20,712 nucleotides of DNA from positions 1 through 20,712 of the IMG/VR virus record IMGVR_UViG_3300026484_000228; one strand, written 5' to 3'. Shown piece after piece: positions 6,818-20,712 of this stretch. The stretch comes from a virus. The translations under genes and the position numbers were made by a program. Numbering within the stretch: the stretch's first letter is position 1; every line of letters starts with the position of its first letter. A model generated the notes under the pieces. It searched no databases, had not been told where the DNA came from, and saw nothing but the letters and a program-made list of their open reading frames with translations.

Positions 6818-7279
6818 TTAAAAAACTTCACATTGACAAAAATGATTAAAATAATAACCTCCATAATTTGACTCTTTTATATTTTCAATAAATATGTCAG
6901 TTCTAACTTTGTATTTAAAGTTAATATCACCATTAGGAAATATTTCACATAATAAAACAAAATCAATTAAATTAGAATTTTGTTTCACGTATTTCATATC
7001 TTGTCTAATTGGAAACCATTTGTGTCCATTCACTCTTGCAGTTTTGACTTCATATTTTGTATTAAAACAATCAATTAAATCATATCTCCAATCAAAACTT
7101 TTCTTGAAACCAAAATTTTTAATTAAAAAATATTCTGCTGCTATTCCATTAAATGCATCTTTATAAATTTGTTGAGATGTTCTTCCACTAGTATTGTTTG
7201 TTTGGATTATTTTGTTAACTTCAAAATTTACAAAATTTAAAAAATCTTTATCTTTACAATTAATATTTCCTATAATCAT
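6818..7279 (-). CDS. Putative PD-(D/E)XK-fold nuclease
   Basis: 153 residues. The pattern fits a restriction-endonuclease-like fold: an early helix with Glu (GIAAEYFLIKNFG, about residues 45-57), then WRYDLID with an Asp (about 64-70), then YEVKTARV giving the E-x-K pair (about 76-83), followed by a strand-rich region. No named family is recognised. In T4-like phages nucleases near the hydroxymethylcytosine genes degrade unmodified cytosine-containing host DNA, so that role is an attractive inference, but repair or packaging roles cannot be excluded. The start overlaps the stop of the dTMP-kinase-like gene by ATGA, so translation is coupled. The long plus-strand frame across it is a shadow. 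Confidence 0.58.
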   Translation of the reverse strand: MIIGNINCKDKDFLNFVNFEVNKIIQTNNTSGRTSQQIYKDAFNGIAAEYFLIKNFGFKKSFDWRYDLIDCFNTKYEVKTARVNGHKWFPIRQDMKYVKQNSNLIDFVLLCEIFPNGDINFKYKVRTDIFIENIKESNYGGYYFNHFCQCEVF

Positions 7280-7800: not shown

Positions 7801-7845
7801 AATTCCTCCTTTATGCAATTATAATATAACAATATTAATTTTATA

Positions 7846-8079
7846 TTAATTATTATATTTTTTTAAAAATTCTTTAGTATATTCAATAAAAGTTTCTAGA
7901 CAATTAAAATCATCAGGAAGTAAATATTCAAATTCTTTATGACCATCCATAATGAATCTATTATCCCATCTTCCTACTATCATTTCTTTTTCATTAACAA
8001 TTATACCATTTCCAAAATAAAATTTTCCATCTATATAAGATTTCTTATATTTATTAAGTAATTTTTCACCAAAATTCAT
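7846..8079 (-). CDS. Small protein of unknown function (77 aa)
   Basis: Not recognised. The 77-residue product is charged and soluble, with likely strands in the first half (GKFYFGNGIIVNEKEMIVGR, about 18-37) and a C-terminal helix ending EFLKKYNN. There is no signal peptide, membrane segment or Cys cluster. It has a canonical ribosome site (AAAGGAGTTA) seven bases before the ATG, ten bases after the stop of the HD-Pnk gene, so it is probably translated from the HD-Pnk transcript. The position suggests a link to RNA repair or nucleotide kinases but gives no proof. Confidence 0.7.
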   Translation of the reverse strand: MNFGEKLLNKYKKSYIDGKFYFGNGIIVNEKEMIVGRWDNRFIMDGHKEFEYLLPDDFNCLETFIEYTKEFLKKYNN

Positions 8080-8088
8080 TTAACTCCT

Positions 8089-9138
8089 TTAATTATGAAA
8101 GAAAAGACATTGTGTTGTATCTTTCATATATTCAAAATAAATTCTATTAAATCCTTCAGTATACAAAGGAAGTTCAAATCTTTTTGCAAAATCTATTAAA
8201 ATATTTTCTGGAATAAATTTTCCATCAATTTCACTTCTTTCTTTATTTCTTTTGAGAATTTCATCTAAAGATGATAACATGACAACTGCTTTTACATTAT
8301 AATCATCAAGTTGAGATAACCATCTTCTTCTTGATTTCCAACTAATATTTGTCATATCTATAACAAAATCTTTATTTGATTTTTTAAGTTTATTAAATTT
8401 TTGTAAAAGAATTTTATTAATTTCTTTTTGATCCTCTGAGCTTAATTTTTTCCAAATATCTGTATATGTATCACCATATCCTTTCTTTTTTCCATATTCT
8501 AAAAGAATATCATCTCTACTTAAAACTTCTAAGTCTTTAAAATTCTTTTTTATATAAGTCGATTTTCCAGATCCTGGAAGTCCTATCATAATATAACAAT
8601 TTTTATCTAATATTGTATTACAAATTTTATTAAATCCATATTTTTCTTTTTCTTTATATTGAAAATCTTTAAAAGAAATATTTCCTTTGGCATCATAAGA
8701 TGAAAATTCATAAAGTTTTTCATATAAATCATAATGTCCATTGACAAAATATTTTTTAATTTGTTTGTCTGATTTTCTCCAAAATATTCCATGATAATTT
8801 GTTATGTAAAGAATTTCAATAGCATTCAAAAAAGATACAGTATCTTTATAAACTAAATTTATTAAAAAATCAATAGACATCAAAGTAGAAATTCCTTCAT
8901 GTCCTCTAAATACTATTTTACCATTTTCTAGATGATTTTTTGCAAGAGGTTTTCCAATATCATGAAGAAGTGCAGCAATTTGAAGATTCTTTGAAGCATT
9001 ATTTAAGCGAGCTTGATTAAATACAAGCATAGTATGAGTCCAAACATCCCCTTCAAGATGATATAAATCACCCTGATGAGAAGTAGATTTTAACAAAGTT
9101 TCATAAGTTTTCTTAAAATCTTTAAATATTCTTTCCAT
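8089..9138 (-). CDS. HD-Pnk: N-terminal HD phosphohydrolase plus C-terminal polynucleotide 5'-kinase
   Basis: 349 residues. The HD domain (about 1-150) shows His35 in WTHTMLV, His59-Asp60 in ALLHDIGKP and His80-Glu81 in RGHEG. The C-terminal kinase (about 180-330) shows GLPGSGKST (186-194), SRDD (207-210, matching the catalytic RDD of T4 Pnkp), DMTN (261-264) and a KSRRRW Arg cluster (268-273). This architecture is known from bacterial HD-Pnk (studied in Runella), where HD removes 2',3'-cyclic or 2' phosphates and the kinase phosphorylates 5'-OH ends. T4 PseT/Pnkp uses a HAD phosphatase instead. The likely job is healing RNA ends cut by host anticodon nucleases, with a ligase encoded elsewhere. 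It is transcribed from its own promoter through a structured leader nearly identical to that of the TerD gene. Confidence 0.85.
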   Translation of the reverse strand: MERIFKDFKKTYETLLKSTSHQGDLYHLEGDVWTHTMLVFNQARLNNASKNLQIAALLHDIGKPLAKNHLENGKIVFRGHEGISTLMSIDFLINLVYKDTVSFLNAIEILYITNYHGIFWRKSDKQIKKYFVNGHYDLYEKLYEFSSYDAKGNISFKDFQYKEKEKYGFNKICNTILDKNCYIMIGLPGSGKSTYIKKNFKDLEVLSRDDILLEYGKKKGYGDTYTDIWKKLSSEDQKEINKILLQKFNKLKKSNKDFVIDMTNISWKSRRRWLSQLDDYNVKAVVMLSSLDEILKRNKERSEIDGKFIPENILIDFAKRFELPLYTEGFNRIYFEYMKDTTQCLFFHN

Positions 9139-9270
9139 TTTAACTCCTTTAAAATTTATTTATCAGAACCTCTCTGGAGGTCTCTGGTTAATTTTTTAAT
9201 TATCGTAATAGTTTTAATTATCAAAGTTTTAAATTTTCACCAGAGAGGCTCCAATAAATAAATACTAACA
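9139..9270 (-). promoter_or_regulatory. Structured mRNA leader of the HD-Pnk gene (copy 1 of 2)
   Basis: On the mRNA strand a 5' arm CCUCUCUGG (9240-9248) can pair perfectly with CCAGAGAGG (9169-9177) close to the start codon. Its UCUCUGG part plus the preceding GGAG (9249-9252) can instead pair with CCAGAGA (9181-9187) and CUCC (9176-9179). The two folds exclude each other. The ACCUCC at 9176-9181 could also pair with the ribosome site AAGGAG (9144-9149), which suggests translational switching. Both arms and the spacing recur before the TerD gene with a different loop. Confidence 0.72.
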
Positions 9271-9275
9271 ATAAA

Positions 9276-9304
9276 ATTATAACAAATTTTTTGAAAAAAG
9301 TAAA
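9276..9304 (-). promoter_or_regulatory. Promoter of the HD-Pnk gene
   Basis: TTTACT (9299-9304), 17-base spacer, TATAAT (9276-9281) extended by TG; sigma-70 consensus on the minus strand. It lies directly after the stop of the 139-residue gene (9320). The sequence from 9239 to 9311 is identical to the one before the TerD gene (12888-12960). Confidence 0.82.
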
Positions 9305-9319
9305 TAAATTACAATTTAT

Positions 9320-9739
9320 TTATATTTCAAAATCATTTTTTGAATATTCATAAACATCTTTGATAACTTCTTTGAGATATTTTTCTAATTCTTTTAATGG
9401 TTTATCCTTAAAGAAAAATACCTCATTATCTGTAGCACAAGCTCTTTCTATTAATTCTTTAAATTTACCATCTTCTTTTAGAACTTTAAAAATTAATTCT
9501 TTCATTCTATAAGGATACTTAACATTTTTAATATGTATTTTTGGACCTTTTATTGATATCAAAAATACAGAATCATTTTGATTTATTTCTTTATCCCATA
9601 CATTTATTTCTTTGCCAACAATTTTAAAATGAAATTCTACATCATCAATTTCAAAAATAACAGGTTGATCAATACTGTATTCAAAAATTAATTTTGTTTC
9701 TTTAACTTCTTTTCCAGTTTTTGGTAAAATAACATTCAT
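9320..9739 (-). CDS. Protein of unknown function (139 aa)
   Basis: Not recognised. The first two thirds alternate short strands (KLIFEYSIDQPVIFEIDD, FHFKIVGKEINVW, VFLISIKGPKIHIKNVKY), suggesting a small beta domain. The last 50 residues are helical and charged, with one Cys (ACATDNEVFFF). There is no signal peptide or membrane segment. The ribosome site AAGGAGTAAAT leads into the ATG. It starts two bases after the stop of the 117-residue gene, forming a small cistron pair, and it ends 15 bases before the -35 of the HD-Pnk promoter, so it is probably the last gene of the unit starting at 10588. Confidence 0.75.
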   Translation of the reverse strand: MNVILPKTGKEVKETKLIFEYSIDQPVIFEIDDVEFHFKIVGKEINVWDKEINQNDSVFLISIKGPKIHIKNVKYPYRMKELIFKVLKEDGKFKELIERACATDNEVFFFKDKPLKELEKYLKEVIKDVYEYSKNDFEI

Positions 9740-9741
9740 AT

Positions 9742-10095
9742 TTACTCCTTAATTTTTTTATAAATATATTTGATATCATCCCAATCAGCACCAAACATAC
9801 TGTATGTTTTAATTTCTATTTTACTTTCCCAATTTTTATCTTTTTCAAGTAATTCATTTTTCATATTTGTTTTATAAACAAAACCAACAGGAGCATATTT
9901 TTGTAGAAATTTATCTTTTCTCACATGAATTTCATTTTTAAATTTTGATTTATTACAATCAATTTCAAAAATATGAATACAATTGTCAATTTCATCAATA
10001 TTATCCAAAATGTATTTTTTAATTTCTTCAAACGTTTTAAATAATTTTAAAAAATTATATCTTTCAAAACAATTTGAATCTGAAAACAAAAACAT
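9742..10095 (-). CDS. Protein of unknown function (117 aa)
   Basis: Not recognised. It is soluble and charged, with Cys at 9, 39 and 47. A helix-rich N-terminal third (KLFKTFEEIKKYILDNIDEI, about 17-36) is followed by strands (CIHIFEIDC, EIHVRKDKF, APVGFVYKTN). Near the end, the Trp/Asp-rich FGADWDDIKYIYKKIKE closes the protein. The start is set by a very strong AAGGAGG six bases before the ATG. Two bases separate its stop from the next gene, so the two are probably co-translated. The family cannot be named. Confidence 0.75.
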   Translation of the reverse strand: MFLFSDSNCFERYNFLKLFKTFEEIKKYILDNIDEIDNCIHIFEIDCNKSKFKNEIHVRKDKFLQKYAPVGFVYKTNMKNELLEKDKNWESKIEIKTYSMFGADWDDIKYIYKKIKE

Positions 10096-10214
10096 CTTTT
10101 CCTCCTTATATATATATTTTCTAAAAATTCTTTTGCTTTTGATAATTTGTTTGTATTTTTAATAATTTTTATTTTGAGCAAATTTTGAAGTTCTTCTTCA
10201 TTTTTTGCTTTCAT
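10047..10214 (-). CDS. Doubtful small ORF (55 aa) overlapping the next gene
   Basis: An ATG at 10212-10214 opens a 55-codon frame, Lys/Glu-rich at first (MKAKNEEELQNLLKIK), that runs 49 bases into the 117-residue gene. Its N-terminal half looks helical, but no ribosome site precedes the ATG. Just upstream lies an unusually GC-rich patch with a 5-bp inverted repeat (AACAC 10218-10222, GTGTT 10232-10236) immediately after the stop of the 98-residue gene. It may be a small gene, a decayed gene or untranslated spacer. The stretch 10096-10238 otherwise holds nothing I can support. Confidence 0.22.
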   Translation of the reverse strand: MKAKNEEELQNLLKIKIIKNTNKLSKAKEFLENIYIRRKRCFCFQIQIVLKDIIF

Positions 10215-10238
10215 TGAAACACTGGGTGAGGGTGTTCT

Positions 10239-10535
10239 TTATTCAACATATACCCCTTCATAAAAAATATAATAAAAATTTTTTCTAACTCTAGATTTTG
10301 AATTCAAAACATCTTCAATTTCTTCTTTTGAATATACCTCTATATGTTCAGGTTCTCTTTCATCATTTAAAATTGGAACAGGATATTTTTTATCAAAATA
10401 AAATCCTATTTCATAAAATTCTTCTTCTGGATAATTTTCTTTTTTAATTAATTTTTTTAGCCACCACTTATCATATTTGTTTAATTTTATAGTAATATCT
10501 TCTCCTGTAGAAAATTTATTTTTATAAACTTCCAT
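10239..10535 (-). CDS. Small acidic protein of unknown function (98 aa)
   Basis: Not recognised. The product is rich in Tyr, Trp, Glu and Lys: KYDKWWLKKLIKKENYPEEE (about 20-39), FYFDKKYPVPI (about 46-56), an acidic segment EPEHIEVYSKEEIEDVL (about 62-78) and a YYIFYEGVYVE tail. There is no membrane segment or signal peptide. It is the first gene after the promoter at 10560-10588, with a ribosome site AAAGGAGTTA before the ATG and a leader of about 18-20 bases. Small, first-in-operon, early-promoter phage genes of this kind often encode host-takeover proteins; that is inference from position only. Confidence 0.72.
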   Translation of the reverse strand: MEVYKNKFSTGEDITIKLNKYDKWWLKKLIKKENYPEEEFYEIGFYFDKKYPVPILNDEREPEHIEVYSKEEIEDVLNSKSRVRKNFYYIFYEGVYVE

Positions 10536-10559
10536 TTTAACTCCTTTTTCTTTTTTATA

Positions 10560-10588
10560 ATTATAACATATTTTTTGAAAAATGTAAA
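10560..10588 (-). promoter_or_regulatory. Promoter of the 98-residue gene
   Basis: TTTACA (10583-10588), 17-base spacer with a T-run then A-run, and TG-extended TATAAT (10560-10565). The leader is short and goes directly into the ribosome site; it lacks the long hairpin of the HD-Pnk and TerD leaders. Confidence 0.8.
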
Positions 10589-10644
10589 TAGTAGAATAGA
10601 TATTCCAAAAATTTTACACAACAAATGATTTATATAATGTATAT

Positions 10645-10738
10645 TTGAAAATGTAACTTGAAGATATATTTTGAAAATGTAATTTGAAGATATATTTTGA
10701 AGGATATATTTTGAAGGATATATTTTGAAGGATATATT
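10645..10738. repeat. Tandem repeat array (two 26-bp and three 14-bp units)
   Basis: Two 26-bp units (10645-10670 and 10671-10696, one mismatch) are followed without a gap by three identical 14-bp units TTGAAGGATATATT (10697-10710, 10711-10724, 10725-10738). The 26-mer ends in a variant of the 14-mer (TTGAAGATATATT). On the plus strand each unit supplies a TTGAAG and a TATATT that fall 16 bases apart between neighbouring units, resembling overlapping weak promoters. Iteron-like protein binding is an alternative. Confidence 0.88.
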
Positions 10739-10762
10739 TTAAATCAATGGAAGATTTGCAAT

Positions 10763-10796
10763 AAAGAGTTTTTAATTTAACTTTTGAAAACTCTTT
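10763..10796. other. Perfect 10-bp hairpin
   Basis: AAAGAGTTTT (10763-10772) and AAAACTCTTT (10787-10796) form a perfect 10-bp stem with a 14-base AT-rich loop. GAAGATTT occurs on both sides of it. It lacks the AAGGA loop motif of stem-loops A-C. It lies between the tandem repeats and stem-loop A. Confidence 0.6.
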
Positions 10797-10818
10797 GAAG
10801 ATTTTTAAAGAAAATACA

Positions 10819-10882
10819 GAGAGAGTTGAAGACTAACAGTTACTTTAATTATAAAAACAAAGGAAGTCTTTTTAACTCTCTC
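10819..10882. other. Stem-loop A of a three-member structured element family
   Basis: Outer stem GAGAGAGTT (10819-10827) with AACTCTCTC (10874-10882); inner stem GAAGACT (10828-10834) with AGTCTTT (10865-10871); two extra T (10872-10873) on the 3' side; a 30-base loop ending CAAAGGA (plus-strand reading). Stem-loops B and C have the same plan with different but complementary outer stems. The coding strand is unknown. Confidence 0.75.
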
Positions 10883-10899
10883 ATTAATGATCATAAAAA

Positions 10900-10975
10900 C
10901 TTAAGAGGGCGGAGACAACAAATAACCCCTTTTATTAAAATATATCAAGGATGTCTCTTTGCCCTTTTTTTTAAG
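10900..10975. other. Stem-loop C of the same family, overlapping the TerD gene stop
   Basis: Outer stem AAGAGGGC (10903-10910) with GCCCTTTT (10961-10968), extendable by CTTAA/TTAAG at the base; inner stem GGAGACA (10911-10917) with TGTCTCT (10952-10958); two extra T; a 34-base loop ending CAAGGA. It contains the TAA stop of the TerD gene at its base. On the plus strand it ends in eight T, on the minus strand a short T-run follows, so it may also work as a transcription terminator. Confidence 0.7.
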
Positions 10976-12788
10976 AAAAAAGTCTCAATTGAACATCTTT
11001 TGTATATTCCACTTTTTTGAAATCCTTAGAATTTAAAAATCCTTTTAAAATTTCTAATAAATCTTCTGATAAAATATCTTCAATTCTCAATCTTGCTTCA
11101 TTGTAAGCTTTTATCACATTCATAAAAAGCGTTTCGTTTTCATTTGCTACAGATTTTGGAGGCATTTTGAAATTATTAATATAAAAAGTATCTTCTATTA
11201 ATACACCTAATGTTTTATGAATATTTTTTTCATCCACATAATCATTACATTTAAAAATAATTTCATCAGCCATTGTATTTTTTGGTAATTCATTTGTTCT
11301 TTCTATATTTCCAAACCAAAGTGTATAAGGAACCTTTACATCTTGTGGTGAAAAATAATTAATATTCAATATATAAATTGAACCTTTTGTGTTTAACAAA
11401 AGAAAACTTTCAGCAGCACCATTTTTTGCGTCAGTCATATCACCACTAAAAATTACATTATTGTTTTTCCAATCAGAATTCCAACCAATTTTTCTAAATT
11501 GATTTGTCAAAGAAAGATCTAAATCTATACTTTTTCCATTAACATTTTCCCAATAAATACCCATTAAATTAAAATTTGTTATTTTTGTTCCAAATGGAAC
11601 ATCATTTAAAAATTGTTTTCCAGAAACAGGTAAAGCATAATTTTTATATTTTTCTATATCAAAAATGATTTTCTCTTTAACAATTTTTTTAATAAATTTC
11701 ATTTGTATAAAATTTATTAATATTTCTAAAAATGGTTTATATTCACCTGTAAAATATGTTTTTGTATACCATATTTTTCCATTTCTTATAACATACATTG
11801 CACCGTTAATATTATTTTCTTGACAATAAACTCTGTATTTAAAGGCATTCCCTAATTTAATAACATATGATAAATCCATATTTGATATCAATTTCATAAA
11901 ATCATCATAACATATATTTCCATATTCTATTAATTCTGTGATTCTTAGATATTTTGGAAGTCCTTTAGGTTTGTGATATTTTTTAGATAATTTAGAGATT
12001 CTATTTATAGTCCATTTTAATTTTCTATTATTAGAATTTGCTTTCACTGCTACAAATATTTTCTTATATCTATTAAACCCTTCAGCTAAAGGAATAAATC
12101 CATATTTTTCTATAAATTTTTTAAGATATTCAAAAAACTCATTTGATTTATTCACAAAAACACCAAGTGTCTCTTCATCTTTAACAAATAAGGTATTACC
12201 TGTTAAAATATAATTTACGTATCCAAAAAATTCATCAATATTATCTGGTAATTTATTAAACTTATCAAAAAGTGCATATCTTAATTCTTTAGAAGGAATT
12301 TTATCAAAATCAAGTTCTAAATTGTTATAGTTTATGAAATTAACAATAAAAGAAATTTCTTCAAAAGTCCATTGTTTAGTATTGTAAATATCTTCTACAA
12401 ATCTTTTAACAAATTCTTCAAAAGACATTGATTCAATTACAATAACTTCTTTGATAATTTGATTAAATTCAGGATTATCTAAAAATACATCTTCACCTTG
12501 AAGACCTAATCCATATGTTGTAAAATAATGTAATAATTGTTTTACTAAAATATCAAATCTTGAAGAATTAGCTACTTTTTTAAAAGTACTAAATGTTTTA
12601 GCAGTTCTAGCTTTTGTAATTTCAGTTTTTAAAACTTCTTTAATATTTTGAATATCATCTTTTGTTAAATGCTGAAAATTTTTAACAACAAAAGGCAAAA
12701 GATCTTCCATTTCTTGAAAATTATTTTCATCTTTTCCTGTATAAACAAATTTGTTGTATCTATCATAAACAAATTTTTGTAAATTCAT
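10971..12788 (-). CDS. Large protein with a C-terminal TerD-like domain
   Basis: 605 residues. The C-terminal part has TerD-family features: WENVNGKSIDLDLSL (about 413-427) with the acidic DLDLS core, then SGDMTDAKNGAAESFLL (448-464), matching the family's hSGDnxxg...de segment that binds calcium in TerD, then strands YILNINYFSP. The N-terminal 400 residues are helix-rich with no catalytic motif I recognise. Larger cellular proteins combine a TerD domain with such regions and belong to stress and defence-linked Ter gene sets; phage examples are unusual. No transmembrane helix is seen. It has its own promoters and a structured leader almost identical to that of HD-Pnk, and its stop codon lies in stem-loop C. 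The function is unknown; a stress or anti-defence role is inferred from family and shared control. Confidence 0.68.
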   Translation of the reverse strand: MNLQKFVYDRYNKFVYTGKDENNFQEMEDLLPFVVKNFQHLTKDDIQNIKEVLKTEITKARTAKTFSTFKKVANSSRFDILVKQLLHYFTTYGLGLQGEDVFLDNPEFNQIIKEVIVIESMSFEEFVKRFVEDIYNTKQWTFEEISFIVNFINYNNLELDFDKIPSKELRYALFDKFNKLPDNIDEFFGYVNYILTGNTLFVKDEETLGVFVNKSNEFFEYLKKFIEKYGFIPLAEGFNRYKKIFVAVKANSNNRKLKWTINRISKLSKKYHKPKGLPKYLRITELIEYGNICYDDFMKLISNMDLSYVIKLGNAFKYRVYCQENNINGAMYVIRNGKIWYTKTYFTGEYKPFLEILINFIQMKFIKKIVKEKIIFDIEKYKNYALPVSGKQFLNDVPFGTKITNFNLMGIYWENVNGKSIDLDLSLTNQFRKIGWNSDWKNNNVIFSGDMTDAKNGAAESFLLLNTKGSIYILNINYFSPQDVKVPYTLWFGNIERTNELPKNTMADEIIFKCNDYVDEKNIHKTLGVLIEDTFYINNFKMPPKSVANENETLFMNVIKAYNEARLRIEDILSEDLLEILKGFLNSKDFKKVEYTKDVQLRLFS

Positions 12789-12919
12789 TTTAACTCCTTT
12801 AAATTTACTTATCAGAACCTCTCTGGAGGTCCCTGGACAATTTTTATAATGTATAAATATTTTTTACAATCAACTTTTTAAACTTTAACCAGAGAGGCTC
12901 CAATAAATAAATACTAACA
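12789..12919 (-). promoter_or_regulatory. Structured mRNA leader of the TerD gene (copy 2 of 2)
   Basis: Same design as the HD-Pnk leader. The 5' arm CCUCUCUGG (12889-12897 on the mRNA strand) pairs with CCAGAGAGG (12818-12826) or, with the preceding GGAG, with CCAGGGA (12830-12836) and CUCC. The one change in the proximal arm (A to G on the mRNA strand) keeps pairing as G-U, whereas it would break a pair on the plus strand, so the minus-strand RNA is the likely functional form. The roughly 50-base loop differs from copy 1. Confidence 0.72.
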
Positions 12920-12924
12920 ATAAA

Positions 12925-12953
12925 ATTATAACAAATTTTTTGAAAAAAGTAAA
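12925..12953 (-). promoter_or_regulatory. Promoter P1 of the TerD gene
   Basis: TTTACT (12948-12953), 17-base spacer, TG-extended TATAAT (12925-12930); identical in sequence to the HD-Pnk promoter, within a 73-base exact duplication. Confidence 0.82.
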
Positions 12954-12978
12954 TAAATTAAAAAGAATTCGTTATGAA

Positions 12979-13008
12979 ATTATAACAATTTTTTTTAAAA
13001 AAAGCAAA
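12979..13008 (-). promoter_or_regulatory. Possible second upstream promoter P2 of the TerD gene
   Basis: TTTGCT (13003-13008), 18-base T-then-A spacer, TG-extended TATAAT (12979-12984), 54 bases upstream of P1. It resembles the other promoters but has a poorer -35 and longer spacing. Confidence 0.5.
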
Positions 13009-13026
13009 TTTTTTCTAAAACAATTT

Positions 13027-13095
13027 TATAGAGTGGATGAAGACTAAATAATAATAATTATAAAAGATCAAGGAAGCCTTTTTATCCACTCTATA
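13027..13095. other. Stem-loop B of the three-member structured element family
   Basis: A 12-bp perfect outer stem TATAGAGTGGAT (13027-13038) with ATCCACTCTATA (13084-13095); inner stem GAAGACT (13039-13045) with AGCCTTT (13075-13081); two extra T (13082-13083); a 29-base loop ending CAAGGA. Loop and inner stem match A while the outer stem is unrelated in sequence, which indicates selection on pairing. It lies between the 100-residue gene and the TerD promoters. Outside it and the promoters, the gap 12789-13147 shows nothing else. Confidence 0.75.
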
Positions 13096-13147
13096 TAAAA
13101 TATTGAAAAGAATTAATTTTTTTACTTTAATTTATATTCAAATATTC

Positions 13148-13450
13148 TCAAACTTTTTTTCCTGTAAAAACACCGTCTTTCAGTTCTGCAGCAACATACT
13201 TCAATCCATAATATTTTTTCTCTCCAGGAGATAAATATTTATTCATTTGTCTTGCATATTTTTTTGCTTCTTCTGGTATGTTAAAAATTTTCTTTTTGTT
13301 AATTACTTCTTTTCCTTCCAGTTCTTTTACACTTCTAATAGGTTTTTCTCCAATACTTCCACCTAAAAGAACAACAGTGTATTTAATTCCAGATAAATCT
13401 GGTTCTGTTCCTTCTGAAACTTTTATTTTTTCTAAAATTTCTCTTATCAT
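13148..13450 (-). CDS. Small protein of unknown function (100 aa)
   Basis: Not recognised by name. After an acidic N-terminus there is a strand (YTVVLLGGSIG, about 24-34), then IFNIPEEAKKYARQMNKYL (about 55-73), SPGEKKYYGLKY (about 74-85), VAAELKDG and a C-terminal FTGKKV. The helix followed by SPGEKKYYGLKY and FTGK looks like a compact conserved phage domain, but I cannot tie it to a function. The ribosome site AAAGGATATAA precedes the ATG, 44 bases after the Nudix stop. It appears to be the last gene of its unit, followed by stem-loop B. Confidence 0.72.
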   Translation of the reverse strand: MIREILEKIKVSEGTEPDLSGIKYTVVLLGGSIGEKPIRSVKELEGKEVINKKKIFNIPEEAKKYARQMNKYLSPGEKKYYGLKYVAAELKDGVFTGKKV

Positions 13451-13494
13451 TTATATCCTTTTTTTATTTAATAACCTAAAATGCTAATTAAATT

Positions 13495-13920
13495 TTAATT
13501 TATTAACTTGTATTTTTTAATAAGTGTCATAATTTGCTCTTTAAAATTACCATTTTCTTTCTGATTTAAAATGTTTTCTATGTTTTCTTTTTTCAATTTT
13601 AACAATTCAACACCTAATATCTCAGATTTAAAATGTTTAGCATTAAAACTGTTTTTCATTATTTTAATAATATCTTCTATATTCATAAATAAAATAAATA
13701 AAAAAATTCTGTCACTTGATGTTTTTACTTCTTCAATTTTATCCAAATATTTTTCAACATCAAAATTTAATTCTTCATATATTTCTCTTTTTAATGCTTC
13801 AACTTTTGACTCATTATTTTCAATATATCCACCTGGAAAACTTGAAGTATTATCATATCTTCTAATTAAAAGAATGTATTTTTTCTTTTTATCAATAATA
13901 GACAAAAAGATTGCTTTCAT
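13495..13920 (-). CDS. Nudix hydrolase
   Basis: 141 residues. The Nudix box starts at Gly31: GYIENNE (31-37), seven residues, then REIYEELNF (45-53), fitting Gx5Ex7REUxEExGU except that the last Gly is Asn52. FPGGYIEN just before the helix is typical. Such enzymes cleave a nucleoside diphosphate linked to another moiety. T4 NudE (about 150 residues) acts on ADP-ribose, Ap3A and related compounds and is the nearest functional model by size, but the substrate here is unknown. GAGGAAG lies four bases before the ATG. It is in one run with the membrane-anchored protein upstream and the 100-residue protein downstream, behind the promoter at 14402-14430. Confidence 0.85.
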   Translation of the reverse strand: MKAIFLSIIDKKKKYILLIRRYDNTSSFPGGYIENNESKVEALKREIYEELNFDVEKYLDKIEEVKTSSDRIFLFILFMNIEDIIKIMKNSFNAKHFKSEILGVELLKLKKENIENILNQKENGNFKEQIMTLIKKYKLIN

Positions 13921-13938
13921 TTTTCTTCCTCATAAAAA

Positions 13939-14376
13939 TTAAAATTTAATAGGTGTCCACAATTTGTTAACTCCATTATTACATTTAATAATTTTACCTT
14001 TATATTCATCATGTGAATAACTTGCTAATAACAATACACTTTCAGCATCAGATTCAACTTTATTTATTTTAACAATTTTTGGTTTAATAGATTCTACTTC
14101 AAAATTTCCATCTGTGTCAACTTTAAATTCAATTACTGAAAGAATATTACCATAACAAAATTCACCTTTATAAAATACAGTATTTTCTGTTAAATCTCTA
14201 CTTATTATTGAAATTTTATTTTTTTCAGCAAATTCTTTTGCCATTTCTCTTGTTTCTTTACTAACAAATGTATGAGTATTCGAATATATAATATCCCATG
14301 CAAATGCACCAACAAACATTAAAAATATTAAATATCCCAAAGCTTGTTTTGAATATTCTTTGAAACATTTTACCAT
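13939..14376 (-). CDS. Membrane-anchored protein with a periplasmic-type domain, unknown function
   Basis: 145 residues. A short positive N-terminus is followed by one hydrophobic segment (ALGYLIFLMFVGAFAWDIIY, about 12-31), acting as a signal anchor. The rest is soluble: a helix with charged residues (SKETREMAKEFAEKNK, about 39-54), then strands and two Cys (FCYGN and IKCNNG) that could form a disulfide if exported. No family is recognised. The promoter and the ribosome site AAAGGAGTTA sit directly upstream, so it is the first gene of an early unit. A role at the cell envelope, for example blocking superinfection, is possible but unproven. Confidence 0.72.
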   Translation of the reverse strand: MVKCFKEYSKQALGYLIFLMFVGAFAWDIIYSNTHTFVSKETREMAKEFAEKNKISIISRDLTENTVFYKGEFCYGNILSVIEFKVDTDGNFEVESIKPKIVKINKVESDAESVLLLASYSHDEYKGKIIKCNNGVNKLWTPIKF

Positions 14377-14401
14377 TTTAACTCCTTTTTTCTTTTTTAT
14401 A

Positions 14402-14430
14402 ATTATAACAAAAAATAAAAGAAAAGTAAA
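14402..14430 (-). promoter_or_regulatory. Promoter of the membrane-anchored protein / Nudix unit
   Basis: TTTACT (14425-14430), 17-base T-rich spacer, TG-extended TATAAT (14402-14407). A TATAAAAAAG tract and then the ribosome site follow, as at 10560 and 15758. Confidence 0.8.
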
Positions 14431-14447
14431 TAATTTTTATATTTTTC

Positions 14448-15731
14448 TTACGAATTTTTAATTATATTCAAAAGTTCCATCCATCTATCTTTCAAAACAC
14501 TTTTATCAGCACCTTTTCTCCATAAATCTTTATCCATATCTTTGTGTTCATCTTTAAGTTTTAATCTCATCCCATCTGGTGTAATTTCACTGTGAATTCT
14601 ATCAGCATTTTCATTTTGAAAATAACATAAATCTACCAATTCAAGTCCATAAGAATCAAAATAATGAAATAACCACCAACTAACATAATTTGTTAATATT
14701 TTGCTATGTTGTGTATCAATATAAAAATCAGCAAATTCATCAGCAATTGCTTCATCACCTTTATCAATTAATTCACCTGTTTTTTCATCATGTTCAACAG
14801 GATTTCTCCAATCAAATCTTATAACTGGATTGGGATACAATCCTTCTGGTTTAATAACTTTTCCATATCTTGTTTTAAACTTTTCAACACCTATCAATTT
14901 ATGTTTAGGAGTTCCAACATGTTTTCTTTTCCAAACAACCTCAATATTTGGAATTTGATTTTCAAACACGACAAGAGATGTATTATCATTTATTTTAAAC
15001 AAAAAATTTGATACAAAAATATCTTTTTTAAATTTCATTAACCCATTTGCATAATAATTTAATAATCTAACAATATAATTTTCATTATGAAATTTGAATC
15101 TATTATACGATATGTTTAATTTACTTCCAATTATTTCCCAAATTCCATTTCTTGCTACATCAGTTCCTTCAACTATTGAATATCTTTTAAACGTAAAACT
15201 ATATACAGATGGTTTTAACGTTGCGACAGCAATGTTCAAATTATACACTTTCCTATAAATTTTACTTTCTCCTTCAATTGTGATTGGTAATTCTTCAATT
15301 TTTAAATCTTCAAGATATTTTTTAATAATTTCAACAACTAATTCATATGGTGTTGTATCTACTTTTCTTTCAAGAATTAACACATTATCAAAATCATTTA
15401 ATTTTTCAACAATTTTTAAGTAACTCTGATTGTATTTATCAAAATCTTTGTCATATTTATCACTTTTATCAATTATTCCTTTTATTTGTTCAGCAACTTT
15501 ATTGTCTTTATAAACAATGAAGACATATAATGTTATTGAATTATTTATGATTTCATTTTTTATATTTTCAATATTTTCATTTGTCAAATTATGAGGTAAT
15601 TTAACATTTTTTGAAATATTAATACTTCTATCACTAACATCAAATCCTAAATATTTTAAATTTTCAACTATTGTGGTTTTACCTATTTTATCCGTTCCTT
15701 CCAATACAATTCTATCAAATTTCATTGACAT
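14448..15731 (-). CDS. Thymidylate-kinase-like domain fused to a SAICAR-synthetase (PurC)-like domain
   Basis: 427 residues in two parts. Residues 1-145 are a P-loop kinase with GTDKIGKTT (12-20). Residues about 150-420 follow the PurC order: EGESKIYR (PurC EGKtKxvY), IVEGTDVARNGIWEIIGSKL (PurC ITAGnaaR...I.gK), NIEVVWKRKHVG (PurC PiEvVvRx.a.GS), YPNPVIRFDWRNP (PurC pPxvEffyKdd), LELVDLCYFQNE (PurC lvDfKlEFG) and HSEITPDGMRL with DKDLWRKG (PurC laDEisPDxxRlw...DKdxyR). SAICAR synthetase joins aspartate to a carboxylated purine precursor. The fusion to a nucleotide kinase is unusual. Either the phage boosts purine supply, or the ligase domain attaches an amine to a carboxylated nucleotide (speculative). 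It has its own promoter and ribosome site AAAGGAGTTA. Confidence 0.72.
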   Translation of the reverse strand: MSMKFDRIVLEGTDKIGKTTIVENLKYLGFDVSDRSINISKNVKLPHNLTNENIENIKNEIINNSITLYVFIVYKDNKVAEQIKGIIDKSDKYDKDFDKYNQSYLKIVEKLNDFDNVLILERKVDTTPYELVVEIIKKYLEDLKIEELPITIEGESKIYRKVYNLNIAVATLKPSVYSFTFKRYSIVEGTDVARNGIWEIIGSKLNISYNRFKFHNENYIVRLLNYYANGLMKFKKDIFVSNFLFKINDNTSLVVFENQIPNIEVVWKRKHVGTPKHKLIGVEKFKTRYGKVIKPEGLYPNPVIRFDWRNPVEHDEKTGELIDKGDEAIADEFADFYIDTQHSKILTNYVSWWLFHYFDSYGLELVDLCYFQNENADRIHSEITPDGMRLKLKDEHKDMDKDLWRKGADKSVLKDRWMELLNIIKNS

Positions 15732-15757
15732 CTTAACTCCTTTTCTTCTTTTTTATA

Positions 15758-15786
15758 ATTATAATAAAAATAAAAGAAAAAGTAAA
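15758..15786 (-). promoter_or_regulatory. Promoter of the kinase-PurC-like gene
   Basis: TTTACT (15781-15786), 17-base T-rich spacer, TATAAT (15758-15763). Just upstream (15798-15815) a 7-bp stem TACTTAT/ATAAGTA with a 4-base loop lies next to the nrdG stop; without a T-run on the minus strand it is only a weak terminator candidate. Confidence 0.78.
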
Positions 15787-15819
15787 TATTTTTTAATTAC
15801 TTATCATTATAAGTATTTG

Positions 15820-16314
15820 TTACCAAAAATTAGATTTAAACCTATTATAAAACCATGATGTTTTATCTTCTACAATTTCACCATTTTTCAAAACATAAAA
15901 TCTTTGATTTGTTGTTGTTGATGATAATGGTCCTAATTCTTTAATATATGGTCCAACCTTTACATAATCTAATTTTTTTAAAAAATCTTTTGTAAATTTT
16001 GGAAAATCTAACTCTCTTCCCGTATAAAAAGCTATTTTTAAATGAGGATATTTCTCTTTAATATAATCAATAATTCTATTCAAATCTTCAAATTCCCATT
16101 CACCTCCATACAAAAGAACACAACTTATATGTTTATGTCTTTTCAAAAGTTTATCTATTTCCTCATTAGTTAATAGTTTACCAAATTTAGGATTCCATGT
16201 TTCTTTTGAATGACATCCTTTACAATGAAGATCACAACCTGATAAAGATAAAGATAAACTTATCTCATCAGGTACTTCTTGAAACTGTATTTGAGGATAA
16301 GAATAATACAACAT
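15820..16314 (-). CDS. nrdG: Anaerobic ribonucleotide reductase activating protein
   Basis: Radical-SAM activase that generates the glycyl radical on NrdD. The 164-residue length is close to T4 NrdG (156). The 4Fe-4S motif is CxxxCxxC at Cys27, Cys31 and Cys34 (SGCDLHCKGCHSKETW). LLYGGEWE (about 67-74) is the typical GGE SAM-binding loop, and KVGPYIKEL (about 118-126) fits the family's DxxxxGxY/F region. Its ATG overlaps the stop of the small exported-protein gene by one base. With nrdD upstream it makes dNTPs without oxygen, so the phage replicates in a host growing anaerobically at least part of the time. Confidence 0.93.
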   Translation of the reverse strand: MLYYSYPQIQFQEVPDEISLSLSLSGCDLHCKGCHSKETWNPKFGKLLTNEEIDKLLKRHKHISCVLLYGGEWEFEDLNRIIDYIKEKYPHLKIAFYTGRELDFPKFTKDFLKKLDYVKVGPYIKELGPLSSTTTNQRFYVLKNGEIVEDKTSWFYNRFKSNFW

Positions 16315-16643
16315 TATTTTACCTTACAATTATTTATATGAATAATAACAGAACCATTAGAATATTCAAAAATAAGAACTGCATCTTTTCCTGAATTTAT
16401 TTGTTTTCTAAATTCCTCGTCCGAACAATAAAGTTTGACTAATGCGTTTTTTAATTTTTCCATTGTTTTTGAACTTGTATTTTTAGCTGTTCTGAAAACA
16501 GTTGATGTTGTTGTAATTACTATTGTATTGTCAACAAATCCATATTTAGTTTTAGACAAATCTCCTGGTAAAAATACTGCATCATTTGCAAATAAAATAC
16601 TCATAAAAAATCCACTGATTAGAAATTTTAAAAGTAATTTCAT
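16314..16643 (-). CDS. Small exported (periplasmic) protein of unknown function
   Basis: 109 residues with a classical signal peptide: Lys-containing start, hydrophobic core LLLKFLISGFFMSILF and a probable cleavage after ALFA-like LFAN (about residues 19-21). The mature part has short strands, a Thr/Ser-rich stretch (IVITTTSTVFRT), then a helix (SKTMEKLKNALVKLYC), DEEFRKQINSG, and a C-terminal two-strand region. The two Cys, in LYCSDEEF and NNCKVK, may form a disulfide. No family is named with confidence. It is inserted between nrdD and nrdG, overlapping both (ATGA and TAATG), with its own AAGGAGTC ribosome site. An exported protein within a dNTP-synthesis operon is odd; an envelope or superinfection role is a guess. 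Confidence 0.75.
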   Translation of the reverse strand: MKLLLKFLISGFFMSILFANDAVFLPGDLSKTKYGFVDNTIVITTTSTVFRTAKNTSSKTMEKLKNALVKLYCSDEEFRKQINSGKDAVLIFEYSNGSVIIHINNCKVK

Positions 16644-18499
16644 ATTTGACTCCTTTTTATTTTTTCATAATATCTCAATTTTTCTTCTTGTTGTCTTGCT
16701 TTACTAAATGATGAAACTCTTTTTAAATATCCAATCACCCTTGTAGCATAATCAATATTTTTTGAACCACATTTTGGACATTTATAATGTGTTCGTTTAT
16801 CAATATGTCCACAGTCATTACAAATTGTAATTTTAACATTATATGTCCAGTAATTGCAACCAACTTTTCCAGCCACATTTAGAAGTTTTCTAAAAGATTC
16901 TTTAGATGGATAATCTTCAAGATTAAGATGAACTGCTTGCCCACCGTCTAAATATTGTGATGTTTCTTTTCCATGTAATTCAAGTTTATCTAAAACTGAC
17001 AAAGATTCATCTTCTGGTCCATAAATATAACTTGAATAAAGATTTCTCCATTCTGGAACCCAATATCCATCCTCTTTGTCCCATTTATAATTTTTTACTG
17101 CAAGATTTTCTGCTGGAACAAACTCAGTATTGAATTTAATTCCATATATTTTTCTACCTTTTTTATTTTCATCACTAAATGTTTTTAAAACATCAGAAAC
17201 CCATTTCATATATTCTTCATTTGGACTTATTTCAAAACCCATAAATTCAGAAGCTTCAACAAGTCCATTTATACCAATTGTTGAAAATTGTTTATCTAAT
17301 GAAATAAAACCAGCTTTATAAACAGGCAACATATCATTATCATAATACCATTCAATAATTTTTCTATGTGCATATTGAAATTTATGAACATCTTTTATTT
17401 TTCCCCTAATATATTCTAAAATTTTAGAATAATTTTCTTTAGGATTTTGAATATTGTATTTTTTAATAGCATCTTGAATTAATCTGTTGAGATTTAAAGT
17501 CATAACACCTACAGAACCAGTCATAACTCCACCTGCTCCAAGTGTATAACTAAATTCGTTTATTTGGTCTTCGATTTCATTTCGTAAACGGCAGCAACTG
17601 GACAAGGCATTCGCATTCTTATCCATAAAAATAAAAAATGAATTCCCTCTACTCATTTCTTCAGCAAGGAAATCTTCATAATCTTTGTCTTTAAGAGTTC
17701 CATCTTCATTTAATAAAACAGCTGCAGTCACGACTGGATATGTTAAAATTGATTTTGTTCTTTCCTGATTGAACCATCTCATGAAATATTTTTGTAATTT
17801 ATCTAACGTTTCCCATTTAGGCTTATTCATATCAGGGAATACAAAATTTCCAAACATTGCATCAAAGTAATATTTATCATATATTGAAATATTCCAGAAA
17901 ACACTTTGATATCCTCTAGCAGCTGCAGGCTGATTTAATGAATATACAACATGTTGTAATGCTTCTTTGATTTCATTTTCATGAGTTTCCAAATAATTAT
18001 CTCCAAAATCTTTTCTTGCAAAATAATCAAAATACATTAACCACTCAACAGTTGCTACTGCTCCTGCAAATTGAGCCGCAGTAGCAAATACAAAATTAAT
18101 AAATACCCCATTAAATGAATAAAGATGTTTAGGAGCTTTACTTTCTCCACCCATTTTAGTTAATCCATCTATTAATAAAGGATACATTGTTACTGACACA
18201 CAATAAGGAACTGCAGGATGTGTTTCATCATGTTTATAAAGTTCGTGCTTATTTAGCATTTCTAAATATTTATTTGCAGTTTCTTCATCAAATAACTCAA
18301 TAATTTTTCTTCTCATCATTTCTCTATTTATAAATATATTTTCTCTTTTATATAGTTCTGACATCATTGTTGCCACATTCTTACTATCTACATTAGCATT
18401 TGGATCATATTTTGAGCCTTCTGCCGCATTCTCTGAATAAACATAGTTTTCTATAAAATTAATTTTTTCATCTACAAATTCTTTCATGAATTCATTCAT
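16640..18499 (-). CDS. nrdD: Anaerobic ribonucleoside-triphosphate reductase
   Basis: Reduces ribonucleoside triphosphates to dNTPs with a glycyl radical. The 619-residue length is near T4 NrdD (605). The C-terminal motif RVIGYL places the radical Gly at 590. The zinc site is Cys560, Cys563, Cys574 and Cys577 (CNDCG ... CPKCG). Candidate active-site Cys residues are Cys100 (HPAVPYC) and one of the SSCCRLRNE pair, matching the T4 arrangement. GGVMTGSVGVMTLNLNRLI fits the family's conserved barrel segment. No N-terminal ATP-cone is obvious, as in T4. The start overlaps the 92-residue gene by eight bases, with AAAGGAAT upstream. It is the main dNTP source seen in the window; no aerobic reductase is present here. 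Confidence 0.95.
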   Translation of the reverse strand: MNEFMKEFVDEKINFIENYVYSENAAEGSKYDPNANVDSKNVATMMSELYKRENIFINREMMRRKIIELFDEETANKYLEMLNKHELYKHDETHPAVPYCVSVTMYPLLIDGLTKMGGESKAPKHLYSFNGVFINFVFATAAQFAGAVATVEWLMYFDYFARKDFGDNYLETHENEIKEALQHVVYSLNQPAAARGYQSVFWNISIYDKYYFDAMFGNFVFPDMNKPKWETLDKLQKYFMRWFNQERTKSILTYPVVTAAVLLNEDGTLKDKDYEDFLAEEMSRGNSFFIFMDKNANALSSCCRLRNEIEDQINEFSYTLGAGGVMTGSVGVMTLNLNRLIQDAIKKYNIQNPKENYSKILEYIRGKIKDVHKFQYAHRKIIEWYYDNDMLPVYKAGFISLDKQFSTIGINGLVEASEFMGFEISPNEEYMKWVSDVLKTFSDENKKGRKIYGIKFNTEFVPAENLAVKNYKWDKEDGYWVPEWRNLYSSYIYGPEDESLSVLDKLELHGKETSQYLDGGQAVHLNLEDYPSKESFRKLLNVAGKVGCNYWTYNVKITICNDCGHIDKRTHYKCPKCGSKNIDYATRVIGYLKRVSSFSKARQQEEKLRYYEKIKRSQI

Positions 18500-18770
18500 T
18501 TTTTATTCCTTTCTTATTTAACTTTATTTTTGAAAAATTAACTTTTAATCCTCTTTTTAACAATTCCTCTGTAATCTTAAAATATAGATTTAATAATTTA
18601 TTGTCTGGAATATTTTTTAAAATTAATTCATCTATTTTATCATATAAACCTATAGCAATTGAAGTTCTAATATTCTTTTCTTCATCTACAATTTGATAAG
18701 CAAAAGCATCCATGTTATCTATTTTGAAAGTTCCAAATTTTATTTTCGGAGTGAGTATTTTATAATCCAT
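18492..18770 (-). CDS. Small protein of unknown function (92 aa)
   Basis: Not recognised. The N-terminal half is strand-rich (YKILTPKIKFGTFKIDNMDA, IRTSIAIGLYDKI) and the second half helical (ELILKNIP, LLNLYFKITEELLKRG), ending in a basic tail (KIKLNKKGIKNE). There is no Cys, signal peptide or membrane helix. It starts 12 bases after the possible 25-codon ORF, with AAAGGAATTA before the ATG, and overlaps nrdD by eight bases, so it is probably co-translated with the reductase. A reductase-linked or replication-linked accessory role is inferred from position only. Confidence 0.75.
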   Translation of the reverse strand: MDYKILTPKIKFGTFKIDNMDAFAYQIVDEEKNIRTSIAIGLYDKIDELILKNIPDNKLLNLYFKITEELLKRGLKVNFSKIKLNKKGIKNE

Positions 18771-18782
18771 ATTAATTCCTTT

Positions 18783-18860
18783 TTATTCAACTATTTTTTT
18801 CTGCACTATTAGATTTATAAAATATTTCATTATTTTTAAAAAATAGGATACTAGTTTCAT
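18783..18860 (-). CDS. Possible 25-residue hydrophobic micro-ORF
   Basis: The 100-base gap between the polymerase and the 92-residue gene is almost filled by an ATG-started frame of 25 codons beginning MKLVSYFLKIMKYFINLIVQ and ending in a basic KK segment. It would form one short membrane or amphipathic helix. Its stop lies 12 bases before the next ATG, as expected for coupled genes, but the ribosome site (AAAGAAG) is weak and so short a frame can arise by chance. Confidence 0.3.
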   Translation of the reverse strand: MKLVSYFLKIMKYFINLIVQKKIVE

Positions 18861-18870
18861 TGTTTCTTCT

Positions 18871-20079
18871 TTACCATTCATCTAAATCAATTTTATTTTC
18901 TTTTTCAAATTTATAATTAATAGCATCTGCAATTAATTTCAATGGTTGTAAAAAATTTGTTTGAAACGCTTGTTCTTTATCAATATATTTTACTAAATCA
19001 ACATCAAATAAAAATCCTTCATCTATAAATCCTATAACATTTTCATTTATAGGATTTGGTAATTTTAATGGAACATACTTTATCTTGTCACCTTCTGTAA
19101 TTAAAGGATAAATATCCCATAATCCATTTTTATTAACTAATTCATTATGTAAAATAGCAGCTCTAGAATTTATTGGACATGGAATTCTAACACCATTTTC
19201 ATTTAATCTATAATAACCTTTTTTATCTTTTTTATAATCTAAATTATTAACAGAACTTGTTTTAGCTATTACTTCAGGATTATTATCACATTTTTCAAAA
19301 AATTCTTTTTTTACTTCTTGAACAAATTCTTGTAAATCTTTTTCATCTTTATCCATCATTATTAAAAGAGCTTTTTCTAATTTATCTATTACAAAATCAG
19401 GTGTTGAACTTCTAACAATTTCTAAACCTGTTACAGATAATTTAGGTTTGTTTATTAAAATAGTTCCTTCATTCCATATTGTTTTTAATGCATATCTTTT
19501 TTTGGCAATCCATATTCCTTTTTCATTAATTTTTTCAACTTTAAATCCCATGAAACCTGGTTCTTTAACATTTAATTTTTCTTGTATTTCTTTTATAGCA
19601 TTTTCTGCAACATTGTTAACTTTATCTATAAATTTTAGTAATGTATTTAATAATTTTTCTTTTTCTTCATCTGTCATTTCTTCATATTTTTTACCCATTT
19701 TGTTTTCAATTAATTTAACAAAATCTTCTAAAGAAAAATAAAATGAATCAGTATCAGAATAAATAATATAATTCTTATTTGATTTAAAAACATTTTGTAA
19801 ATACTCATTAACTTTTTTTGATGTAAATTGTATCATAAATCTTCCAATAAAAGTAATACTACCAGACATATTTCTATTGTGTATAAAGAAATATTTATTA
19901 TCCAATGCACCAAATAAAGAATTCATCAAAATTTTAAAAGCCATTTGTTTATTATTATATTTTGTTATTAATTCTTCAATCAAAGATTTATCAACGTCTA
20001 ATTCAAAATCATTGTTATAAATATCATCAAATGTTAATTCTAAATTTTCTATTTTATTTAAAACTTCTGAAACTTTCAT
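18871..20079 (-). CDS. 43B: DNA polymerase, family B (T4 gp43-like), C-terminal part of a split gene
   Basis: 402 residues carrying the second half of a T4 gp43-type polymerase. Motif B is KILMNSLFGAL (49-59), with Lys49 matching RB69/T4 Lys560 and Phe56 in place of the fidelity-related Tyr567. Motif C is YSDTDSF (107-113), with the catalytic Asp109 and Asp111. A thumb region and an acidic C-terminal tail (KIDLDEW) follow, where gp43 has its clamp-binding peptide. The first 40 residues, upstream of motif B, correspond to the second fingers helix. It starts with its own ATG and ribosome site, overlapping the first part by ATGA, so this is a true two-gene arrangement and not a frameshift. The two proteins must assemble. 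It replicates the phage genome. Confidence 0.93.
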   Translation of the reverse strand: MKVSEVLNKIENLELTFDDIYNNDFELDVDKSLIEELITKYNNKQMAFKILMNSLFGALDNKYFFIHNRNMSGSITFIGRFMIQFTSKKVNEYLQNVFKSNKNYIIYSDTDSFYFSLEDFVKLIENKMGKKYEEMTDEEKEKLLNTLLKFIDKVNNVAENAIKEIQEKLNVKEPGFMGFKVEKINEKGIWIAKKRYALKTIWNEGTILINKPKLSVTGLEIVRSSTPDFVIDKLEKALLIMMDKDEKDLQEFVQEVKKEFFEKCDNNPEVIAKTSSVNNLDYKKDKKGYYRLNENGVRIPCPINSRAAILHNELVNKNGLWDIYPLITEGDKIKYVPLKLPNPINENVIGFIDEGFLFDVDLVKYIDKEQAFQTNFLQPLKLIADAINYKFEKENKIDLDEW

Positions 20080-20712
20080 ACTTTCTCCTTTAGTGCTTTC
20101 AATAAAAGCATTTTTTGTTTTTCTTTTTTTCTTCCATAATATGTTTTTTCAATAATTTTTGGTATTATTCCTTTTTGTGTGTTTTCAAAAAAACCCAAAC
20201 CAGCAAAAATATAATTAGGGTATTTTTTCAAAATTTCGTTTATTTTATCTAAATTTTCAACTAATTTTAATTCATTTTCATCTCTAAAATATTGATAAAT
20301 TTTTTGCAATTCTTCTGGTAATCTTTCAGGATTAACATAAGTATCAGGAGAAATATTGAATGATAACATTATACTTGGATACATTGAATTAGCATCTTCA
20401 GAGGCAACCCAATTATGTTTTCCGATTATTGGATCCTTAACAAATCCACCTTTAATAGGTTTATCATCTGTTGATTCAGAACCAGAAATAACTAATTTTT
20501 CATTCAATGCTATTAATGTTAAAAAATTAGTCCAAGGATGAACAGTTCCAAAAATTTTGTCTAAATTTGTTCCAGTCATTTTTGCTATAGTAATACTTAA
20601 ATCCATTAATCCTGTTTTCTTCATAATATTTTTTAAAACAATAGGGTCTTTAATAGCATATTCAGTAAATCCATCATAATCTTGCTCATAAAAATCATAA
20701 ATAGATTTATAC
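20076..20712 (-). CDS. 43A: DNA polymerase, family B (T4 gp43-like), N-terminal part of a split gene (5' end outside window)
   Basis: The frame is open to the window edge, giving 211 visible residues; the internal Met at 20624 is not the start. It begins with the end of the 3'-5' exonuclease domain: EYAIKD holds the Exo III YxxxD motif (T4 YNIID). It continues into the palm with motif A SEDANSMYPSIMLSFNISPD (T4 FDLTSLYPSIIRQVNISPE). GFFENTQKGIIPKII (T4 QEGIIPKEIAK) follows, then the first fingers helix YYGRKKEKQKMLLLKALKEKV. It then stops, about 40 residues before motif B. The missing N-terminus should hold Exo I and Exo II. The second cistron supplies motifs B and C, so polymerisation needs both products. 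Confidence 0.93.
   Translation of the reverse strand, partial: YKSIYDFYEQDYDGFTEYAIKDPIVLKNIMKKTGLMDLSITIAKMTGTNLDKIFGTVHPWTNFLTLIALNEKLVISGSESTDDKPIKGGFVKDPIIGKHNWVASEDANSMYPSIMLSFNISPDTYVNPERLPEELQKIYQYFRDENELKLVENLDKINEILKKYPNYIFAGLGFFENTQKGIIPKIIEKTYYGRKKEKQKMLLLKALKEKV
20085..20091 (-). promoter_or_regulatory. Internal ribosome binding site for the second polymerase cistron
   Basis: AAAGGAG on the minus strand, five bases before the ATG at 20077-20079 and inside the last codons of the first cistron (KALKEKV). With the ATGA stop/start overlap it shows that the C-terminal part is translated separately and in step with the N-terminal part. Confidence 0.85.

Follow-up and report, generated by a model that had tools for sequence, protein, structure and literature searches.

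The window, i.e. the whole stretch of 20,712 nucleotides of viral DNA analysed here (IMG/VR record IMGVR_UViG_3300026484_000228), carries on its minus strand a single uninterrupted frame of 427 aa (14448-15731), a letter-for-letter copy of which is present in a second IMG/VR contig. The frame joins a small kinase-like domain to a divergent relative of SAICAR synthetase (PurC). NrdG and NrdD genes upstream and a Nudix hydrolase gene downstream lie on the same strand, a setting of nucleotide metabolism. The features of the locus are the following:

13495..13920, minus strand: Nudix hydrolase, downstream of the fusion (Nudt16-like 1.3e-12, NUDIX 2.6e-10)
14448..15296, minus strand: divergent PurC-fold domain, residues 146-427 plus the stop codon, a candidate PRFAR-using synthase (profile and model matches, residue mapping, tree)
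15297..15731, minus strand: small P-loop (TMPK/NMP-kinase-like) domain, residues 1-145 (P-loop GTDKIGKTT and DR motif, own-profile match, stand-alone homologues)
15737..15742, minus strand: ribosome-binding site AAGGAG, a few bases 5' of the ATG at 15731 (read directly)
15820..16314, minus strand: NrdG-like radical-SAM activase, directly upstream of the fusion (Fer4_12 1.5e-16, Radical_SAM 5.5e-7)
16640..18499, minus strand: NrdD anaerobic ribonucleotide reductase, upstream of the fusion (NRDD 1e-102)

Two contigs, both from one metagenome, overlap the window: positions 1-12912 are 100% identical to part of a 109-kb contig and positions 12787-20712 to part of a 15-kb contig. The phage genome is therefore at least ~122 kb long. 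A 95% repeat was noticed between window positions 12787-12955 and the opposite end of the 109-kb contig (L030:1-171), possibly a terminal or dispersed repeat.

The N-terminal part has the GxxxxGK[ST] P-loop and the DR motif by which thymidylate/NMP kinases were recognized. The P-loop GTDKIGKTT and the DR motif are common to small stand-alone kinases of 120-150 aa, homologous to residues 1-145, that adjoin the PurC-like gene in relatives. Residues 1-145 match their own kinase profile, which was built with this sequence included, at E = 5.1e-35. In the family-profile search the 427-aa protein reached none of the cut-offs for Thymidylate_kin, dTMP kinase or other kinase families, and the separate small kinase of locus L019 scored 30.2 bits against a cut-off of 83.25 bits (Thymidylate_kin/dTMP kinase). 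Modelled alone, the kinase domain gave a pLDDT of 52, too poor for a structure search. Thus, the label ‘thymidylate-kinase-like’ used in the initial annotation holds as to the kinase type, given the P-loop and the DR motif, but neither family cut-offs nor the model back it further.

For the C-terminal part, the sequence case for PurC is modest for the single protein and strong for the family. A Pfam search with the 427-aa protein returned no significant match, phmmer matched the protein to 2yzl (E = 0.006), and the C-terminal part matched PHROG 1112, a phage PurC (E = 1.7e-5); the family profile matched PDB SAICAR synthetases at E = 5.6e-17. The AlphaFold model of the 427-aa protein (mean pLDDT 80.7, above 90 across most of the C-terminal domain) retrieved Streptococcus pneumoniae PurC (4fe2) in Foldseek with E = 2.3e-14, and VIA-align superimposed it on SAICAR synthetase with Z = 27.4 over 229 aligned residues at 2.0 Å. 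SAICAR synthetases were the only strong structural matches of the model. The family profile and the structural matches bear out the earlier assignment of a SAICAR-synthetase-like fold, and the fusion itself is real.

The PurC-like family is rare and patchy. Using tblastn, relatives were detected in 15 Lak phage records at ~30% identity; these phages (Prevotella) are the closest relatives that have a name. Profile-guided scans, which were seeded from exact peptide patterns so that all counts are lower bounds, found at least 15 loci in 84,980 bacterial and archaeal species genomes and, among viruses, one 335-kb and one 141-kb phage contig. The hosts include Saccharibacteria, Parcubacteria, Falkowbacteria, Vogelbacteria, Uhrbacteria, Woesearchaeota, Myxococcota and a gammaproteobacterium, among others. 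When 240 genomes sampled from the CPR phylum of G011 were searched with an HMM, G011 itself was the sole match, and a core CPR pathway was rejected on this ground. The gammaproteobacterial MAG (G013), which has HisF and HisD, contains two tandem, very divergent PurC-like genes (L021:9030-10990); a longer kinase of the TMPK-like type lies 2 kb from them.

In a maximum-likelihood tree, in which long branches are present, the family separates from canonical PurC, cyanophage PurC included, with support of 100/99; the window sequence clades with loci L008-L011 (95/93). Against the PurC equivalog TIGR00081 (cut-off 189.9 bits) the window protein gives no match, and the Lak and L019 proteins score 26.7 and 16.6 bits, respectively. 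Active-site residues were mapped from human PAICS (as in PMC9376930) by aligning the family together with six canonical PurC proteins. Nine positions (PAICS numbering) are replaced throughout, or almost throughout, the 20 family members compared: Lys17 to Glu, Thr40 to Tyr, Asn43 to Thr, Phe129 to Asp, Lys131 to Arg, Asp133 to Pro, Lys191 to Cys, Glu193 to Phe and Asp207 to Ser or Gly. Retained positions are Lys19, Glu97, Asp137, Asp212, Arg215, Lys228 and Arg232, and the Gly106-Ser107 turn is kept as Gly-Thr. The PAICS positions are presumed ones, whose residue letters agree with the published list. Within the ATP/Mg set (Lys17, Lys19, Glu193, Asp207), where we take Glu193 and Asp207, from PurC structures, to be Mg ligands of ATP, Lys19 alone is retained; the aspartate-binding set has lost Thr40 and Lys191 and kept Lys228 and Arg232. 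Both Glu193 and Asp207 are listed as active-site residues of human PAICS (PMC9376930). Judged from the alignment, the nucleotide pocket is partly kept, while the family has lost the ATP-Mg ligands and half of the four contacts to aspartate.

The family also has a new invariant set, RFDWRNP and D367-x-C369. Eleven residues, including R305, F306, D307, W308, R309, D326, D367, C369, E382 and D386, do not vary across 19 very diverse members; together with the existence of stand-alone copies, this looks like a catalytic site. The active site thus seems repurposed rather than decayed. Several of the PurC residues for ATP, SAICAR and aspartate that the initial annotation had singled out for a conservation check are not kept, and the nearly family-wide replacement of Lys17, Lys191, Glu193 and Asp207 means that ATP-driven amide formation with an amino acid is not the favored chemistry. 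The PurC-fold domain probably does not act as an ATP-dependent aspartate ligase.

The company that the PurC-like gene keeps is distinctive. In a tally of 18 relatives, made with profiles built from members of those same loci, HisG is found near it in 12, a kinase in 12 (the small type in nine, the longer TMPK type in three), HAM1 NTP pyrophosphatase in 11, a HisA-HisI-HisE fusion in eight and PurA in four. These neighbors mostly lie within 2 kb and often overlap. As an independent check on example loci, Pfam and NCBIfam models recognize HisG, HAM1, CoaD, PurA and HisAIE, and most of the triple fusions keep HisA, HisI and HisE catalytic motifs that look intact. Loci L008-L011 have the PurC-like gene, HisG and HisA-I-E together, the first two fused in L011; in L013 it is the kinase and HAM1 that are fused. 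The kinase is a separate gene beside the PurC-like gene in Lak phages, several CPR genomes and a Woesearchaeon, which supports the suggestion made at first annotation that the two fused domains share one substrate.

The Lak phages have the order HisG, TMPK-like kinase, HAM1, CoaD-like adenylyltransferase, PurC-like, seen as a compact unannotated operon in Lak-B7 (L003:9656-12756) and Lak-A1 (L004:9660-12756). In the 335-kb phage (G015), a cluster of HAM1, HisG, PurC-like and HisAIE genes occupies L006:8705-12114; the same phage has genes for a short protein resembling PurA, for an IMP dehydrogenase that contains an intein, and for PurB (L045:4765-5805 and 8107-9675, L046:4168-5481). Viral scans with the HisA-I-E alignment matched this 335-kb phage only, and those with Lak HisG matched nothing.

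HisD and any HisF above cut-off are absent from 13 of the 14 host genomes, with controls positive in 13-14 of 14 and the reservation that bins may be incomplete. PRFAR formed by the steps from HisG to HisA therefore has no histidine outlet in these 13 genomes. The idea that the HisG and HisA-I-E genes serve to make histidine was rejected, G013 being the only host with both HisF above cut-off and HisD. The PurC-like gene is the constant extra gene beside the HisG-to-HisA steps. Most of the host genomes, as far as possibly incomplete bins can tell, also lack PurH and canonical PurC; a separate canonical PurC is present in G002, G003 and G013.

A similar combination is known from the pentostatin, coformycin and adechlorin clusters, in which HisG and HisA homologs are paired with a SAICAR-synthetase homolog (PMC12648386, PMC13055916); one review among these sources calls the function of PenC unclear. 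CofB, PenC and AdeA resemble the family in being PurC homologs that work with PRFAR-making enzymes of the HisG/HisA type and lead to a nucleotide product. CofB reportedly converts PRFAR to 8-ketocoformycin-5'-phosphate without a phosphorylated intermediate, and it is said to be activated by ATP yet not to require it. The loss of ATP-Mg and aspartate ligands in the family would fit a reaction of this kind. The two sets differ in distribution, CofB, PenC and AdeA coming from actinomycetes and the family from phages, CPR bacteria, Woesearchaeota, Myxococcota and a gammaproteobacterium. They differ as well in partners, the family being linked to HAM1, a TMPK-like kinase (fused in the window phage) and PurA. 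Gene company and the described chemistry suggest that the family probably acts in the manner of CofB; identity with CofB is not claimed. No CofB, PenC or AdeA chain was among the PDB matches of the family profile, tblastn of plasmids for CofB/PenC-type sequences gave no match, gammaproteobacterial relatives yielded no useful lead to such sequences, and no CofA/PenB-like short-chain dehydrogenase was noticed by eye among the ORFs read around relatives.

We give an even chance to the reading that the fusion carries out PRFAR-using synthesis of an unusual, coformycin-like purine nucleotide and its phosphorylation. HisG, HisE, HisI and HisA would make PRFAR from ATP and PRPP. The PurC-fold domain would rearrange it to a purine-like nucleoside monophosphate resembling coformycin, either 8-ketocoformycin-5'-phosphate or a near analog with a seven-membered 1,3-diazepine ring, which the fused kinase would then phosphorylate. 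PurA could aminate the keto group of the product, and HAM1 would destroy keto-type triphosphates. In the window phage the Nudix hydrolase could do the clean-up that falls to HAM1 in relatives. HisG, HisI and PurA were not found in the 109-kb contig of this phage, nor HisG in its 15-kb contig; with no HisG in ~122 kb, PRFAR would have to come from the histidine pathway of the host.

Several observations count against this reading, among them that HisG, HisI and PurA were not found in the window phage and that no CofA/PenB-like reductase was noticed near the relatives. HisI was not found in Lak phages or in G008, G010, G011 and G014, all of which have HisG, and neither HisG nor HisI was found in three bins, G005 and G007 (Saccharibacteria) and G006 (Bacilli). 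The retention of Lys228 and Arg232 counts in the same direction.

The PurC-like domain might instead turn PRFAR into ordinary IMP or AICAR, providing organisms and phages that lack de novo purine synthesis with a by-pass from adenine to inosine and guanine nucleotides, with HAM1 removing ITP and XTP. The frequent HAM1 neighbors, the IMP dehydrogenase and PurB of the 335-kb phage and the lack of PurH and canonical PurC in most hosts would all suit this scheme. However, where PurA directly adjoins the PurC-like gene, IMP would go straight back to AMP in a futile cycle, and a gene present in one of 240 genomes of a CPR phylum is too patchy for a core purine route. Moreover, we know of no biochemical precedent for such a conversion by a PurC fold. 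Overall, we consider the by-pass unlikely.

We find it similarly improbable that the domain is still an ATP-dependent ligase, one that links a carboxylated nucleotide with a different amine or amino acid, although the fold and the seven retained residues, from Lys19 to Arg232, speak for it. The presumed Mg ligands Glu193 and Asp207, the ATP-site Lys17 and the aspartate contacts Thr40 and Lys191 are replaced in all or nearly all members, and a ligase leaves the company of HisG and HisA-I-E unexplained. The amino-acid-decorated nucleotide envisaged by the initial annotation is thus weakened by the replaced residues, and the gene company points to PRFAR chemistry.

It seems very doubtful that the domain is degenerate or merely regulatory, binding a purine intermediate and controlling the kinase. 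The lost residues of the ATP-Mg site and the activation of CofB by ATP without a requirement for it agree with such a role, but invariance of eleven residues over so diverse a set, the stand-alone copies and the conserved operons with HisG and HAM1 do not. Simple complementation of purC is also disfavored. Finally, an ordinary phage PurC boosting purine synthesis in the cyanophage style has next to no probability and was rejected on the separate clade, the replaced residues, the scores against TIGR00081, the different gene company and relatives in genomes that lack the rest of the pathway or have a canonical PurC besides, even though PurC is a known phage auxiliary gene (the canonical form was matched by 196 phage records).

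With SAICAR synthetases such as cyanophage PurC and PHROG 1112 the family has in common the fold, at a Z of about 27, and a portion of the nucleotide-binding site; it differs in the nine replacements, its clade, its scores below the equivalog cut-off and its neighbors. The PurZ-type pathway for 2-aminoadenine (Z) DNA follows a shared logic (non-canonical purine synthase, NTP clean-up and kinase) with different enzymes; identity with it was rejected, as the PurA proteins beside the family score as PurA, not PurZ. Viperin systems with a CMPK2-type kinase likewise combine a modified-nucleotide enzyme with a small TMPK-like kinase, but no radical-SAM viperin is present here and PADLOC kinase matches are weak (VakA, E = 3e-4). 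The PADLOC search for known defence systems gave no useful match. Literature searches found nothing relevant tying Lak phages to ATP phosphoribosyltransferase or Patescibacteria to hisG and purC, and nothing relevant on coformycin in phages or on 8-ketocoformycin.

Extending the proposed PRFAR-using synthesis, we put forward with low confidence that phages and scattered episymbiotic bacteria and archaea may start from an intermediate of the histidine pathway and build a purine nucleotide whose ring is expanded to a 1,3-diazepine. Its phosphorylation to the di- or triphosphate would be the task of the kinase, PurA and PurB may aminate it and HAM1 would remove faulty triphosphates. The nucleotide might finally enter phage DNA or RNA as a letter, or serve as a weapon against adenosine-deaminase defences (RADAR, Kongming). 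To our knowledge, diazepine nucleosides (coformycin, pentostatin), tight inhibitors of adenosine deaminase, are known only from actinomycetes and fungi. If true, diazepine nucleotide biosynthesis would extend to CPR bacteria, DPANN archaea and giant phages, phages would tap the histidine pathway for a modified purine, and the conserved unannotated Lak operon would gain a function. A concrete prediction would also follow, concerning both the nucleotide pools of phages and their counter-defence to adenosine-deaminase systems.

As judged by reading of ORFs, the window phage has structural and DNA-replication genes, and it encodes, in addition to NrdD and NrdG, a family-B DNA polymerase, split in two overlapping ORFs (18871-20712, minus strand). 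It has both ThyX (1-594, minus strand) and a ThyA-family thymidylate-synthase homolog (5455-6222, minus strand). The latter reads GYSSD at what we take to be the dUMP-specific Asn site of thymidylate synthases and is probably a dCMP hydroxymethylase. Near it lies a T4-type beta-glucosyltransferase (3914-5005, minus strand; phrog_7922, E = 1.2e-58), and the two together make glucosylated hydroxymethylcytosine likely in the DNA of this phage. A CofD/YvcK-like domain fused to a HAD phosphatase (1072-3324, minus strand), unusual for a phage, adjoins a weak MobA-like nucleotidyltransferase; CofC and CofD form such a pair in F420 synthesis.
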